From NCBI GenBank assembly GCA_002717465.1, contig PBDQ01000030.1, positions 21,046 to 59,009 of the forward strand: a stretch of 37,964 nucleotides of DNA, given 5' to 3'. Positions 23,296 through 29,573 of this stretch are shown one piece after another. Position 1 is the stretch's first letter; every line of letters starts with the position of its first letter. Position numbers and translations under genes: made by a program. Below the pieces are notes generated by a model. That model saw only the letters and a program-made list of their open reading frames with translations. It did not search any database and was not told the origin of the DNA. The stretch comes from Chloroflexota bacterium (GTDB lineage Bacteria; Chloroflexota; Dehalococcoidia; Lucifugimonadales; UBA826).

Positions 23296-24939
23296 TTATA
23301 GAGATCCTCTAAAGGAAAAATCTTGTTCTTCAGATGTGACAAACTCCAATAAGGCTGCTTGACCATTTTCAGTTGCTGCTTTCGCTCTGGTAAAGGCGTT
23401 TCTTATTGAATCTGGGTCGGAAATTTTTTCTGCCCATCCTCCCATAGCTTTAGCCATGTCCGCATAATCACCACCCAAATCCCTTGTTTTATACATTTCG
23501 TGAGATGTTGCCATGTGACTGGTTTCAATTGCCATGGTGGAATTGTTTAAAACTACTGTAAGTATCGGTATATTGCTTCTCACTGCGGTCTCAAAATCTA
23601 ATCCGGTCATGCCAAAAGCTGCGTCCCCCATGAAATTCACAACGAATTTATCGGGAGAGGCTAATTTAGCCCCTAGATTAAGTCCGAGTCCGGTTCCGAG
23701 TCCGTGTGACTTACCCCATCCAATATAAGTTCCAGGTCCGCCTGAAATATAAAACGGCATTAATTGATCTCTTGGGCTGCCAGAGTCATGCGTCACTATA
23801 GTTTTTGAAGGATCAATGGTGTTCATGAATTCCCAAATGACTCTGTAAGGTGTCATGGGGGTTTCTTTAGATGTTAGTTTGTTGAACCAAGTTTTAAGCC
23901 ATTTATCCTTCAAACTTTTAATCTCATCAACTGGGGATTCAGGAAGTTTATCTTTTGTTAGTAAGTCTTTGCAGGCTTCTATCAGTTGTCGAAGGATTAA
24001 CTTCCCATCACCCAATAGCGCTATTTCGGGATCATAGTAATTTCCGATATCTTTTGGATCATTGACCGCGTGGATAATTTTTTTCTGGCCAGGAATGGTT
24101 GTTATCATTCCATGTTTAGTTAAGCTAGTCCCAATGGCTAAAATTGTGTCAGCTTTGAGCATATAGTGCCGAACAGCTCCATTCATGACTACTGAGGAAC
24201 TGCCTAAAGCCAGCGGGTGTCTTTCGTCTATCACACCTTTACCTGCCATAGTGGTAGTTACTGGAATCCGCGTAATTTCGGCCAGCTCGGTTAATTCTTC
24301 AGTAGCATTACTGTAACTGAGCCCTTGTCCTGCATAAATTAGAGGGGTTTCACTATGCAATAGTAGTTTGGCGGCTCTAACTATATCTTCGTCGTTTGCT
24401 TTGGAGATTAACTTTCGTGCGGGTGTGTATTGGGAGACAATATTATTGTCAACTTCATCGATAGCTATGTCAGATGGTATTTCTACCATTACTGGTCCAG
24501 GCCTACCGTTTTTAAGATTGTAAAAAGCTCGACGCATGGTGTCAGCTACAGCTTCTGGTTGGTTTATTTGTTCTACGTATTTTGTGATTGATGAAAAGCT
24601 TTCAACTGAACTAAAGTGTGGGAAAATACGATCTTTATTTAAAGGATGTCCCAGAGGCAAAAATAAAACGGGAGAAGCATCGGCATAGGCAGTAGCGACG
24701 CCAGGGTAAGCGTTTTCTGCCCCTGGCCCGTACTGCATAGCGAACACTCCAGGGGGGGTTCCTGATTTTATTCGAGCATAGCCATCTGCTATGCCAACTC
24801 CGACGCGCTCTTGCCGGCATATAATCGGTTTTATCCCTGCCGCCGCCGCTGCCTCTATTACAGACGTTGTTGGGAAGGCGCTAAGGTATTCAATTCCTTC
24901 TTTTAGCAAAATTTGTGAGATTGCGTCTATTACCCTCAT
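23296..24939 (-). CDS. Thiamine-diphosphate-dependent enzyme, acetolactate-synthase-like (copy 1)
   Basis: The 547-aa protein has the three domains of the pyruvate-oxidase/acetohydroxyacid-synthase family: an N-terminal PYR domain with the catalytic Glu44 in CRQERVGVGIADGYAR, a central domain with IYAGQGLSYS, and a C-terminal PP domain with the TPP motif MGDAAFGMTGL ending in VLNN. It should cleave or ligate a 2-oxo acid, with TPP and Mg; FAD dependence and substrate are not inferable, and true acetolactate synthase is unlikely since no small subunit is near. AGGAGG lies 9 nt before ATG 24939. It is a same-length paralogue of the enzyme at 27930. Confidence 0.85.
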   Translation of the reverse strand: MRVIDAISQILLKEGIEYLSAFPTTSVIEAAAAAGIKPIICRQERVGVGIADGYARIKSGTPPGVFAMQYGPGAENAYPGVATAYADASPVLFLPLGHPLNKDRIFPHFSSVESFSSITKYVEQINQPEAVADTMRRAFYNLKNGRPGPVMVEIPSDIAIDEVDNNIVSQYTPARKLISKANDEDIVRAAKLLLHSETPLIYAGQGLSYSNATEELTELAEITRIPVTTTMAGKGVIDERHPLALGSSSVVMNGAVRHYMLKADTILAIGTSLTKHGMITTIPGQKKIIHAVNDPKDIGNYYDPEIALLGDGKLILRQLIEACKDLLTKDKLPESPVDEIKSLKDKWLKTWFNKLTSKETPMTPYRVIWEFMNTIDPSKTIVTHDSGSPRDQLMPFYISGGPGTYIGWGKSHGLGTGLGLNLGAKLASPDKFVVNFMGDAAFGMTGLDFETAVRSNIPILTVVLNNSTMAIETSHMATSHEMYKTRDLGGDYADMAKAMGGWAEKISDPDSIRNAFTRAKAATENGQAALLEFVTSEEQDFSFRGSL

Positions 24940-25010: not shown

Positions 25011-25058
25011 ATTATGTTGGAGTGATCTGGGAATTTTATTGGAGAAATGGAGAGAATA

Positions 25059-25967
25059 ATGTCTAATTCAATTAAGAAAATTTTAATGACTGGAGCAACC
25101 GGATATGTTGCGGATCAGATGTTGCCAACATTCAGAGAAAAATATGAAACAGTCCTTATTGATACTAGAAAAGAGAACCGGAGAGGTGAGCACGTTCAAG
25201 GTGTAAACGTTGTTGATTTGATTGATCCTGACACTAGTAAATATAAAGATTTATTCAATGGCGTTGATGCTGTTATACATTTGGCCTATAAAAGAAGAAC
25301 TGGAGACCCAGCAGATCACTTTTATGATGAAAAAGAAAATGTTGAGATGGCCTACAATGTATTTAGATCAGCCTACGATGCTGGAGTTCCTAGAGTTGTA
25401 ATGGCTAGTTCAAATCATGCCGCAGATTGGTATGAACATGCTTTGATACATAATAGAAAATTAGAAATAGTTGAGCCCTATAGCTTGGCTTTATCTGACA
25501 ATTTTTACGGTTGGGCTAAAGCGACTTATGAGCATATGGGGTTTTTATTTGCGGCAGGAGGATTGGGTAAGGAGCTTGATGGTACTTCAAGTAATTTTGT
25601 GGAAGGTAATTTGGGAAGTGGTCGAAAAATGGGCGTTGTGATGGTTCGTATAGGAGCTCCTCGCATTTTGGATAAATCATTGTATTTGGATAATCATGTT
25701 GCTTTTAAACGTGATTTGGGTGCTTACATAAGCCCTAGAGATATCACGCAATTATTTACAAAGGCTATGGAAACGGAATCTATAGAAAATGAAAATAATG
25801 TTCCATGGCAAGTAGTGTATGGGATAAGTAATAATACTCGATCTTTTTGGTCGTTAAAAAGTGCTAGAGATGTACTTGGGTACCGGCCTGAAGATGATTC
25901 TGAAATAGTATTTGCTCAAGAAATTAAGGAACTCTGTCTGAATGAAGGCAAACTGGGTCCATTGTAA
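25059..25967 (+). CDS. NAD-dependent epimerase/dehydratase (extended SDR, uronate dehydrogenase-like)
   Basis: The 302-aa protein has a Rossmann start with TGATGYVA at 11-18, acidic Asp35 after beta-2 (LIDTRKENR) indicating NAD, IHLAYKRR, SSNHAADW near 117-124, and the catalytic Tyr150-x3-Lys154 in NFYGWAKA. SSNHA is also seen in uronate dehydrogenases. It acts on a sugar, sugar acid or nucleotide sugar; which is unknown. ATG 25059, with GGAGA 5 nt upstream, is preferred over the in-frame ATG 25047. Its stop overlaps the bpsA start by one base (TAATG), so it is first gene of a tightly coupled three-gene operon. Confidence 0.82.
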   Translation: MSNSIKKILMTGATGYVADQMLPTFREKYETVLIDTRKENRRGEHVQGVNVVDLIDPDTSKYKDLFNGVDAVIHLAYKRRTGDPADHFYDEKENVEMAYNVFRSAYDAGVPRVVMASSNHAADWYEHALIHNRKLEIVEPYSLALSDNFYGWAKATYEHMGFLFAAGGLGKELDGTSSNFVEGNLGSGRKMGVVMVRIGAPRILDKSLYLDNHVAFKRDLGAYISPRDITQLFTKAMETESIENENNVPWQVVYGISNNTRSFWSLKSARDVLGYRPEDDSEIVFAQEIKELCLNEGKLGPL

Positions 25968-26974
25968 TGTCTCTGTCAGTTAGAGAGTTGCTGGAGGAAA
26001 TAGCCTTTAACACTTCCCTTGAAGAGGGAGCAGAGGGAGTGCGAGCTATTTTAAGGTCCGTTTTGAGGAGTCAGCCAATATCTGTGAATTTATTGGCTTG
26101 TTCGGTTGGAATAGCGGTTCCGGTAGTATCCGCTGTAAGAAGAGAGCTAGAAAAGAGGAAATTATTGGAGCGTAGAGGTGGTGCGGTACTTACGGATAAA
26201 GGGGTGGATGCTTTGAATGAATTAGGAATAAAAAACCTATGTTCTCATAGATATGACGTAACTCAAAGTTTACCCGATCCCATGCAAAAATTGATAGAAT
26301 TATTTAAGAAAAAAACTTTTGATAGACCAGAACCCGATCGGACTATAGATCAGTCTCATACTACCCCTGAAACTAGTATCAGAAGAGTTTTTTACATGTA
26401 CGAGCATGGAAGTATAGAAGGGCGAGATATTCTTCTTTTGGGCGATGATGATTTAACTTCAATTGCTATTGTGTTGTTTGCAGACTATTTTGGCATCGAT
26501 ATAGGATCAATTACTGTTTTAGATATTGATCGCAGAATATTAAATTTTATAGAAAAAAAATGTACTGATTATCAATTTAAATTAAATTCTGTTGCTCATG
26601 ATTTCCGTGAAGACCTACCAGGAAGTAATTTTAATTCTTTTGATGTTTTCTGTTCTGATCCACCATACACAGTTGACGGTGTTAAATTATTTGCTCTGAG
26701 AGGCGCACAAGCTCTCAAAAATGAACCAGGTAAAACGGCGTACATTTCTTTTCCTTCTCGTCCTTCTGACGACATATCTAGTATATTTGGTGCATTGAGT
26801 TCTCTTGGACTGGCTCCACAAGAAATGATTCCTGGATTTAACAGGTATCTAGGTGCCCAAATACACGCAGGCGCAAGTACGATGTTGAGATGTAATACTG
26901 GTTTGGATACAAGGACTGAAATTTCTTTAGATTTGAGTAATATTTATACCAATCAAAGAAGGAACGTAAACTGA
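25967..26974 (+). CDS. bpsA: Branched-chain polyamine synthase (N4-bis(aminopropyl)spermidine synthase)
   Basis: The 335-aa protein matches the BpsA/DUF43 family. It has an N-terminal winged-helix domain (about 1-90, with PVVSAVRRELEKRKLLERR), then DQSHTTPETSIRR at 128-140. A Rossmann-like catalytic domain follows with LLLGDDDLTS, in which GDDD is at 159-162 (the aspartate in this block is catalytic in the archaeal enzyme). TVLDIDRRIL is the cofactor strand, and SDPPYTVDG has DPPYT at 231-235. BpsA adds aminopropyl groups from decarboxylated S-adenosylmethionine to spermidine at N4, giving branched polyamines. Known members are mainly from thermophiles. ATG 25967 overlaps the preceding stop. 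No other polyamine gene lies in the window. Confidence 0.85.
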   Translation: MSLSVRELLEEIAFNTSLEEGAEGVRAILRSVLRSQPISVNLLACSVGIAVPVVSAVRRELEKRKLLERRGGAVLTDKGVDALNELGIKNLCSHRYDVTQSLPDPMQKLIELFKKKTFDRPEPDRTIDQSHTTPETSIRRVFYMYEHGSIEGRDILLLGDDDLTSIAIVLFADYFGIDIGSITVLDIDRRILNFIEKKCTDYQFKLNSVAHDFREDLPGSNFNSFDVFCSDPPYTVDGVKLFALRGAQALKNEPGKTAYISFPSRPSDDISSIFGALSSLGLAPQEMIPGFNRYLGAQIHAGASTMLRCNTGLDTRTEISLDLSNIYTNQRRNVN

Positions 26975-27903
26975 GATATACCGAAAAACCTTATTTGAAT
27001 GGTGCAAGACCAGTATTGCCAAAGTATGTAGACATATTCCAGAATTATTTCCATGACTACGACAAAAAATCTTGGTTTAATTTTGCGCCATTCTTAATTA
27101 GCTATCATCTCCCTCCTAACCGTCGTTTGGAATTTGTGGAGGAAGATTCAACTTTATTTATTTATCAAATTACTAGGTCAGCAACTGATAATTCACAGAG
27201 CCGCATTGACTTATTTACGTCACCCTGTCCGTTGAGTGCCTCTTCTGTAAATAAGTTATCAGATGTAGCGAAATGTAATGGGCAGTCAAATATTAGAATT
27301 TTATGGACAGATCAGAAAGATTTAGAAGGTTTACAGTCATTGTTTGGACAGAAGATAGAAGCTACATTCAAGGATGAAGAATATATTTATGATCCTCGTT
27401 TGATATTTGAAGCAAACGGTTCTAGGTACAAAGACTTGAGAAAAAAGACCCGTAGAGTTGAAAAATTGAAACCAGTATTCAGAGAATTAAGAGTAGATGA
27501 TTTGCCAGAGGCGTACAAACTACTGAAGGAATGGAGACGCGTACAAGGTAGGAAGCGAGATTTTTTACTTGATTGGGGATATACGAATTCTGCTTTAGAA
27601 AGACAATTTCAAATAGGCAGTGACAATATTTTTTCATGGTGTGTGGAAATTGATAATTGCCTGCAAGGATTTGCTATGGCAGGGCCTATTTCCAAAGAAG
27701 TTGCTTCTTTTTTCATAATTAAAACTAATTTACGTATTGATGGGTTATCTGAATATTTGAGATGGAAGGTTTGTGGAGAGCTTCAAGGGTTCAAATACTT
27801 GAATGATGCAGGAGACCTATGTCTTCCCGGTTTACGGCAACATAAAGTAAAAATGAGACCAATTGAATTTAACAAGGTAAGTTCCGTAAAGCTGTTCCTG
27901 TAA
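26971..27903 (+). CDS. DUF2156/GNAT-like protein, probable CTG start, coupled to bpsA
   Basis: The frame codes for about 310 aa. The C-terminal half has the DUF2156 (phosphatidylglycerol lysyltransferase C-domain-like) pattern: a basic KKTRRVEKLKPVFREL, then LDWGYTNSALERQFQ, GFAMAGPISKEVASFFI, and KYLNDAGDLCLPGLRQHKVKMRP, where the last block echoes the family's N-x-E-x-D-x-G-x-x-GLR motif. It lacks membrane segments, so it is probably a soluble acyl- or aminoacyl-transferase-like protein. No ATG is near. TTG 26995 has no ribosome site, while CTG 26971 has AAGGA exactly 7 nt upstream and overlaps the bpsA TGA (CTGA). I therefore favour CTG. Substrate is unknown; a link to branched polyamines is inference. 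Confidence 0.6.
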   Translation: MRYTEKPYLNGARPVLPKYVDIFQNYFHDYDKKSWFNFAPFLISYHLPPNRRLEFVEEDSTLFIYQITRSATDNSQSRIDLFTSPCPLSASSVNKLSDVAKCNGQSNIRILWTDQKDLEGLQSLFGQKIEATFKDEEYIYDPRLIFEANGSRYKDLRKKTRRVEKLKPVFRELRVDDLPEAYKLLKEWRRVQGRKRDFLLDWGYTNSALERQFQIGSDNIFSWCVEIDNCLQGFAMAGPISKEVASFFIIKTNLRIDGLSEYLRWKVCGELQGFKYLNDAGDLCLPGLRQHKVKMRPIEFNKVSSVKLFL

Positions 27904-27929: not shown

Positions 27930-29573
27930 TTATCTTCCGTACGTCGAAATATTTTCTTCTTCTTTAGTCATCATCTCAAGTAAAACAGGCTGTCCTGAAT
28001 TAGAGATTTCTACGGCTCTTTTGATAGCTGGAGCTATCTCAGCAGGGTCGCTTATTCTCTCCCCATGAGCCCCTAGGCTTTTTGCTGTATCTGAATATAT
28101 TCCTCCGAGCTCGTTGCTTTTCCAGTGCTCAGTTGCATGAGGAAGCATTGAAGAATAATGAGTCATCACACCATTATTTAGCACGATAGTGATTGTTCCT
28201 AGTCCTGATCTTGCTGCTGTTTCTATATCAAGCCCGGCCATACCAAAAGCGGCGTCACCCATTACGTTAATTGTGTGTTTTTCAGGAGCTGCTAGTTTAG
28301 CCCCTAGAGTAAGACCTAGTCCGTATCCAAGCTGTGTGGATTTCCCCCAGCCTATATATGACCTTGGTGTCAAAGCAGGCCAAAATGGAACAAGCTGGTT
28401 GCGCGGATAGCCAGAATCATGAGTTACTATTGCGTTTCTTGGATCTATGTTTGTCATTAATTCGTGGAAAACTCGATATGGGCTCATCGGTGTTTCATTT
28501 GAAGTTAATCTTGGCCCCCATTCATCCATGAATTCCTTTTTGATTTCCGAAATTTTTGCCTTCACCCCATTTACATCTCCCCTCCCATGTTCACCAAGCT
28601 GACTTTTGGCCTCCTCAATTAATTGCTGTACAACTAATTTTGCGTCCCCAACGGCACCGTATTGCACTCTATAATCTCTGTTGAGGTCTTCTGCAGTGTT
28701 GGTAACCTGAGCCTTTATTGCGTCATCTGGCATGGGAGCCGTGAAACTGGATATTGCAAAACTAGTTCCTATGCCGAGTACAAAATCTGTTGCTTGTAGG
28801 AAACGGTCCACCATCAACGTTCCAGTGTTACCGCCTGTGCCAAGAGCCAATTCATGGTCTTCTGGGAATGCGCTCTTGCCTGCCAGAGTTGTCATTACGG
28901 GGACATTTACTAACTCAGCAAATTCGACTAATTCTTCGGTTGCTTCAGCATAAAGGCTTCCCTGTCCAGCGTTTATGACAGGGTTCTTAGCTTTAAGGAG
29001 CGCGGCTACTATGTCGCGGACATCTTCATTGGCTGCTAAGGATTTATGAGTTTTTGAAGGTGTGTAGTTTTCAATGTCTGATGGGACCTCGGATTGTCCG
29101 ACATCTCCTGGTAACTCAAGCAAAACCGGGCCAGGCCTTCCGTTTCTGATATGTGTGAAGGCTCTACTGACCATCTCTGGTATCCGCCTAACGGTATTTA
29201 TTCGGCCTGCCCATTTAGTTATGTGTTGATAGTTCGGTACAGAGTCAAATCCAGGATGCACCCCGACTCTACCTTCAGAAGCCCCTCCAGGAATTACTAG
29301 CATTGGAACATTATCAGCGAAGGCTTGAGCCACACCACCAAAGGCATTTTCTGAACCTGGCCCACTTTGCATAGTGAAAACGCCAATTTTGTTGCCGTTG
29401 TTGATACGACTATAGGCGTCAGCCATGTTTACTCCAGCCCTTTCTTGCCTACACATAACAGGGCGAATACCTTCTGAGGAGCAGGCATCAATTAGAGATT
29501 GTGCTGGAAAGCACGAAATCCATTCAATACCTTCTTCTTTCAACAGTTTAGCCATTAACTGATCGCCATTCAT
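27930..29573 (-). CDS. Thiamine-diphosphate-dependent enzyme, acetolactate-synthase-like (copy 2)
   Basis: The 547-aa protein parallels copy 1 block for block: catalytic Glu44 in CRQERAGVNMADAYSR, FTMQSGPGSENAFGGVAQAFAD, NAGQGSLYAE, THDSGYPRNQLVPFW, and the TPP motif MGDAAFGMAGLDIETAARSG to VLNN. Similarity is clearly above family background (I judge roughly 40% identity by eye). It likely acts on a 2-oxo acid, different from that of copy 1. AGGAG lies 6 nt before ATG 29573. Upstream by 34 nt on the same strand is the NHL gene, then the flavoprotein gene, so the three may be an operon. Confidence 0.85.
   Translation of the reverse strand: MNGDQLMAKLLKEEGIEWISCFPAQSLIDACSSEGIRPVMCRQERAGVNMADAYSRINNGNKIGVFTMQSGPGSENAFGGVAQAFADNVPMLVIPGGASEGRVGVHPGFDSVPNYQHITKWAGRINTVRRIPEMVSRAFTHIRNGRPGPVLLELPGDVGQSEVPSDIENYTPSKTHKSLAANEDVRDIVAALLKAKNPVINAGQGSLYAEATEELVEFAELVNVPVMTTLAGKSAFPEDHELALGTGGNTGTLMVDRFLQATDFVLGIGTSFAISSFTAPMPDDAIKAQVTNTAEDLNRDYRVQYGAVGDAKLVVQQLIEEAKSQLGEHGRGDVNGVKAKISEIKKEFMDEWGPRLTSNETPMSPYRVFHELMTNIDPRNAIVTHDSGYPRNQLVPFWPALTPRSYIGWGKSTQLGYGLGLTLGAKLAAPEKHTINVMGDAAFGMAGLDIETAARSGLGTITIVLNNGVMTHYSSMLPHATEHWKSNELGGIYSDTAKSLGAHGERISDPAEIAPAIKRAVEISNSGQPVLLEMMTKEEENISTYGR

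Follow-up and report, generated by a model that had tools for sequence, protein, structure and literature searches.

A BpsA-like branch without the known carrier residues and its conserved DUF2156 partner in marine SAR202 bacteria

Introduction

What does a relative of the branched-chain polyamine synthase BpsA do in a bacterium that does not seem to live in heat, and what does the DUF2156-like transferase encoded by the overlapping downstream gene contribute? The two genes lie in a window of 37,964 nucleotides, the whole stretch of DNA analyzed, from a marine SAR202 bacterium of the Chloroflexota. According to a 2026 review, branched polyamines occur predominantly in thermophiles (PMC12979288), and bpsA is described as absent from mesophiles in the literature searched. 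An earlier note on this DNA had proposed a branched-chain polyamine synthase coupled to a transferase that might modify its product. This interpretation is partly supported, and is restated here as a mesophilic BpsA branch that lacks the known carrier residues and has a conserved DUF2156 partner. The best explanation, with a probability of roughly one half, is a translationally coupled two-gene unit for polyamine modification, in which the BpsA-like protein would transfer an aminopropyl group and the DUF2156 protein would then acylate the product. The features discussed are listed in Table 1.

Table 1. Features of the bpsA-DUF2156 locus and of the second SpeD locus of the host.
Feature	Position	Strand	Description
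NAD-dependent epimerase-like gene	25047..25967	+	PF01370, E=1.4e-12; 1-nt overlap with bpsA (TAATG)
bpsA-like gene (type II)	25967..26974	+	335 aa, ATG start; PF01861, fold, residues, tree
Features of the BpsA-like protein	residues as given		N-terminal winged-helix region; GDDD 159-162; DPPYT 231-235; FNxY 291-294; C-terminal IYT 326-328
Junction	26960..26974	+	AGGA 26960-26963, 7-nt spacer, CTG 26971-26973 overlapping the bpsA TGA 26972-26974
DUF2156 / LPG_synthase_C-like double-GNAT gene	26971..27903	+	about 310 aa; PF09924, fold
Second SpeD homologue and agmatinase-like gene	L147, 4120-4563 and 3215-4117	-	

Host and family membership

The host is a MAG without 16S, and its genome-wide tests were family (profile) searches. 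The G+C content of the window is 41%, 18 ORFs of the window have an IVYWREL content that corresponds to a predicted growth temperature of about 25°C, and the named relatives in the host GTDB family are SAR202 cluster or marine Chloroflexota-type records. These results agree with the mesophilic, AT-rich, marine-type host suggested before; a thermophile-like host genome was rejected on the predicted temperature.

The window protein matches PF01861 (BpsA_C) with E=3.6e-46 and 157.8 bits against a Pfam cut-off of 27, which bears out the family call, and the GDDD and DPPYT motifs are both present at the residues first reported. A phmmer search of the PDB found 5xnc/5xnf, the BpsA of Thermococcus kodakarensis (Tk), with E=4e-35. 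The best Foldseek matches of its AF2 model (pLDDT 84) were 5xnc/5xnf/2qm3/5xnh/6j28, the first being Tk-BpsA, and solved BpsAs, with their homologue 2qm3, made up the nine best. When the model was superposed on 5xnc, the overall rmsd was 16-17 Å and the TM score about 0.58; this large rmsd perhaps reflects a different domain placement in the model, and no residue-level structural claim is therefore drawn from the superposition. The entry 2qm3 is titled 'predicted methyltransferase', and weak N6-adenine methylase scores were also obtained. A methyltransferase reading nevertheless has a low probability: among solved structures the nearest relatives are BpsAs, and relatives of the protein carry fused AdoMetDC homologues. 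Viral origin or spread was rejected as well, as viral contigs contained no BpsA relative.

Two kinds of BpsA

The solved BpsAs (EC 2.5.1.128; 5xnc/5xnh of T. kodakarensis and 6j27 of T. thermophilus) share with the window protein the PF01861 fold, the winged-helix N-terminus, GDDD (Tk 157-160), the Asp of DPP, and FNxY. Tk numbering was carried over through the 5xnc alignment with an offset of 20. On this basis, the acceptor-site residues D225 and Y290 of Tk (PMC12979288) correspond to D231 and Y294 in the window protein, and both are kept. In contrast, the window protein has Tyr for the Glu of DPxET, lacks E259 (the aligned region reads FPSRPS) and the insert before the C-terminus, and carries IYTxxR in place of the acidic cluster (Tk E339-E345; DEE motif). 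It also differs in its mesophilic hosts and DUF2156 partner. In Tk-BpsA, E339/D342/D343/E344/E345 are assigned the role of aminopropyl carrier, and E259 is among the acceptor-activating residues (PMC12979288).

Among 74 aligned homologues, 13 had Glu in DPxET (type I, the classical kind) and 61 had Tyr in DPPYT (type II), with no exception. GDDD was kept throughout (61/61 and 13/13), and the Asp of DPP in 60 of the 61 type II proteins, the remaining one being unread. All 61 type II proteins carried a C-terminal Y[TS] motif at the place of the acidic stretch of the 13 type I proteins. Acidic residues among the six following the C-terminal Tyr numbered 2-4 in type I and 0-2, mostly 0-1, in type II, and there were none in the window protein (IYTNQRRN). 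Likewise, in the region of Glu259 most of type I read E[AS]S, and type II had S[FY]GxxxP or a similar sequence. A tree of 52 homologues separated the classical kind from type II by a branch with 100/100 support, and a tree of all 74 rows gave the same split. Since type II sequences served as seeds for the homologue scan, the relative numbers of the two types are biased; a Chloroflexota family search that was not seeded in this way found both kinds, with BpsA_C above the cut-off in only 10 of the 400 genomes sampled.

The hosts of type II include mesophiles, namely SAR202, Xenorhabdus, Enterococcus, and Pediococcus. Type II is apparently a large, undescribed BpsA branch of non-heat-loving microbes in which part of the catalytic machinery is missing. 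The earlier note had regarded the family as mainly thermophilic; it is widespread in mesophiles, and the argument from rarity therefore has to be restated. No description of BpsA in Chloroflexi or Xenorhabdus was found in the literature searched, although priority is uncertain because subscription papers were mostly outside the search. Without the acidic C-terminal residues, type II proteins cannot use the described carrier set, and since E259 is absent as well, catalysis in the manner of Tk-BpsA should not be assumed. Thus, membership in the BpsA family stands, while 'branched-chain polyamine synthase' is used here as a family name only.

The DUF2156 partner

The DUF2156 reading frame is open from position 26971, and its nearest ordinary start codon is TTG 26995. 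At the equivalent site, relatives have CTG (L008-L010, L012, L013), TTG (L011, L014, L015), or ATG (L004), as read by eye. Judging from these sequences, the gene probably starts at CTG 26971, which overlaps the bpsA stop codon (CTGA), has AGGA 7 bases upstream, and stands at the same place as the starts of the relatives. The start and overlap first proposed are accordingly preferred over TTG 26995. A Shine-Dalgarno-like AGGA is also found 7-8 bases upstream of the DUF2156 start in several relatives.

The partner matches PF09924 (LPG_synthase_C, formerly DUF2156) with E=5.6e-8 and 32.6 bits, above the cut-off of 27.5, and its AF2 model (pLDDT 87) has a tandem-GNAT fold, in agreement with the DUF2156/GNAT-like assignment made at first reading. 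Foldseek placed 2hqy first (1.5e-16, TM 0.83-0.86), followed by MprF/A-PGS C-domains (about 1e-10), streptothrisamine-bound Sbb17/Sba18 (about 1e-8), and FemX (9e-8). A profile of the partner also matched 2hqy (E=4e-18), a soluble, stand-alone DUF2156 protein of similar length and the same double-GNAT fold with which it aligns end to end. However, the 2hqy type has the C-terminal signature NREQDLGxxGLRxAKxSYxP, whereas the bpsA-linked proteins have NDxxDLxxxGL[RK]Q[HY]KxKxRP; the link to bpsA is a further difference. The aminoacyl-tRNA-dependent A-PGS/MprF C-domain, FemX, and streptothricin-type Sbb17/Sba18 share the overall two-GNAT fold, although their identity to the partner is only 9-17%. 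The N-terminal membrane flippase domain of MprF is absent, the whole protein being about 310 aa.

The pair could instead carry out ordinary branched-polyamine synthesis, yielding the products of Tk- or Tt-BpsA, N4-aminopropylspermidine or N4-bis(aminopropyl)spermidine, with the DUF2156 protein acetylating the product. The family and fold matches, the retained GDDD, Asp of DPP, and FNxY Tyr, and the SpeD and SpeE genes of the host are consistent with this, and a passage of the 2026 review mentions an acetylated branched polyamine in T. kodakarensis (PMC12979288, citing Hidese 2017). It is unlikely, however, given that neither the acidic carrier cluster nor the region around E259 is kept in type II, which has Tyr for the DPxET Glu in 61 of 61 proteins, and that SpeG-type acetyltransferases are further from the partner fold than 2hqy and the aminoacyl-tRNA-dependent transferases are.

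Supply and use of decarboxylated SAM

The host encodes speD and speE side by side. In addition, a second SpeD homologue adjoins an agmatinase-like gene, which suggests a route to putrescine by a pyruvoyl arginine decarboxylase and agmatinase. This arrangement resembles the SpeDA arrangement of neofunctionalized SpeD homologues (PMC10407285), so that the route to spermidine looks complete in the host; those homologues concern putrescine supply, in contrast to the bpsA-DUF2156 pair.

Type II homologues are fused to the AdoMet_dc domain (PF02675) in Pediococcus, Xenorhabdus, and Lokiarchaeota, and adjoin a PF02675 gene in Chloroflexota family f113 and a Euryarchaeota MAG. Because ornithine or arginine is the substrate of some SpeD homologues (PMC10407285), the fused or adjacent domains could supply either the acceptor or decarboxylated SAM (dcSAM). 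The type II fusions recorded (L109, L070, L072, L060, L086, L094) are from Pediococcus, Xenorhabdus, Lokiarchaeota, and Enterococcus, and the L070 fusion has lost the Cys of the AdoMetDC motif. The classical BpsA of Chloroflexota family f119 (L125, L126) also has a C-terminal AdoMetDC fusion, apparently independent of those in type II, so the association of BpsA with AdoMetDC probably arose more than once.

One genome of the family, G002, retains speD and the bpsA-DUF2156 pair but shows a clean loss of speE from its place between uvrD and speD, which the gene occupies in the genome of the window (L146 on G002:C5 compared with L148 on G000:C7). No G002 contig yielded speE, which leaves the BpsA-like protein as the one aminopropyltransferase identified in that genome that could use dcSAM. 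As G002 is a single MAG with 94% completeness, this loss is suggestive only. It fits the idea that type II BpsA can stand in for SpeE as another linear aminopropyltransferase (a spermidine, thermospermine, or N1-aminopropylagmatine synthase), as do the AdoMetDC-homologue fusions, including those of CPR bacteria and Pediococcus. But most genomes of the family keep speE alongside the pair, and its loss in one MAG may reflect polyamine uptake; we regard a stand-in for SpeE as improbable.

Conservation and recurrence of the pair

BpsA_C scored above the cut-off in 15 of the 16 genomes of the host GTDB family, while 44 genomes of the order outside this family gave sub-cut-off matches only. The DUF2156 gene directly follows bpsA in all 14 family loci with a readable downstream side, which span six genera; the co-occurrence survey proposed earlier thus found the neighbor neither absent nor distant. 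The proteins of the pair are about 40% identical to those of the window, and dN/dS of 0.10-0.22 for both genes indicates purifying selection. Sampled genomes of the class outside the host family yielded distant, 2hqy-like matches and no close DUF2156 form.

Outside the phylum, the pair was seen once. An Armatimonadota MAG carries bpsA-speD-DUF2156 in one array of overlapping genes; its speD product is an AdoMetDC homologue (PF02675, E=5e-26), and its DUF2156 protein (PF09924, E=8e-11, 42 bits) is 27% identical to the window protein (E=6e-25). This operon is an independent recurrence of the pairing, and it strengthens the view that the DUF2156 protein may modify a polyamine. The other genomes of 291 Armatimonadota lacked the close form; their DUF2156 matches were of the ordinary NREQDLG type, with no bpsA alongside in the stretches examined. 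The Armatimonadota genome was the only one with the partner among 18 genomes with BpsA homologues outside the SAR202 family. DUF2156 as a general BpsA partner was therefore rejected, and its absence from the other 17 marks it as an optional addition.

Alternatively, the two genes may serve different pathways, with the DUF2156 protein acting alone on lipids as an MprF-like aminoacyltransferase, or as another acyltransferase, and only sharing the operon. This accords with the naming of PF09924 after the lysyl-PG synthase domain and with MprF and A-PGS among the fold matches. It is very unlikely, though, in view of the 14/14 adjacency despite changing upstream neighbors, the shared presence and absence of the two genes, the independent operon of the Armatimonadota, where speD lies between them, and a length too short to accommodate the MprF membrane domain.

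Proposed function and significance

In the coupled polyamine-modification unit that we favor, type II BpsA, which keeps the GDDD donor site, would take dcSAM from the host SpeD and put at least one aminopropyl group on a host polyamine, spermidine or else putrescine or agmatine. As the acidic C-terminal residues are missing, the group would probably be transferred directly or via another carrier, and the acceptor preference may differ. The double-GNAT partner would then join an acyl group to an amine of the BpsA product. GNAT folds use acyl-CoA too, and acyl-CoA is an alternative donor here. The best-scoring fold relatives with known function are aminoacyl-tRNA-dependent transferases, so an aminoacyl group transferred from aminoacyl-tRNA to a polyamine amine, as in MprF/Fem/Orf11-type transferases, is the favored guess; amide formation on amines is known for Orf11 and FemX (PMC12945691). 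The analysis shows the family membership, the fold, the conserved pairing, the co-inheritance, the purifying selection, the host genes for dcSAM supply, and the loss of the carrier residues; from these we infer the two reactions and their order, the acceptor, the acyl donor, and the product, which may or may not be branched.

It is tentatively conceivable, though rather doubtful as a whole, that type II proteins are widespread mesophilic, carrier-independent aminopropyltransferases and that, in SAR202 and one Armatimonadota lineage, aminoacyl-tRNA-dependent conjugation by the DUF2156 protein leads to aminoacyl-polyamines, a route undescribed in the literature searched. The link between the BpsA family and thermophily would be broken by a mesophilic branch that lacks the carriers and occurs in culturable Xenorhabdus, Enterococcus, and Pediococcus. 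Type II proteins offer natural variants for a direct test of the carrier model, and the DUF2156 partner suggests that the polyamine chemistry of marine SAR202 bacteria includes a step not yet explored.

Flanking genes

The upstream neighbors of bpsA vary among the 15 family loci, with an epimerase in 5, an ABC transporter ATPase in 2, and other genes elsewhere. In the window, the upstream epimerase overlaps bpsA by a single nucleotide, an overlap also noted earlier. The epimerase is lineage-specific and was rejected as a third member of the unit because it lies upstream in only 5/15 family loci. On either side of the epimerase-bpsA-DUF2156 segment, the minus strand encodes one of two paralogous thiamine-diphosphate enzymes of 547 aa each (23296-24939 and 27930-29573); where enough sequence is available, most family loci retain the downstream one beside the pair.
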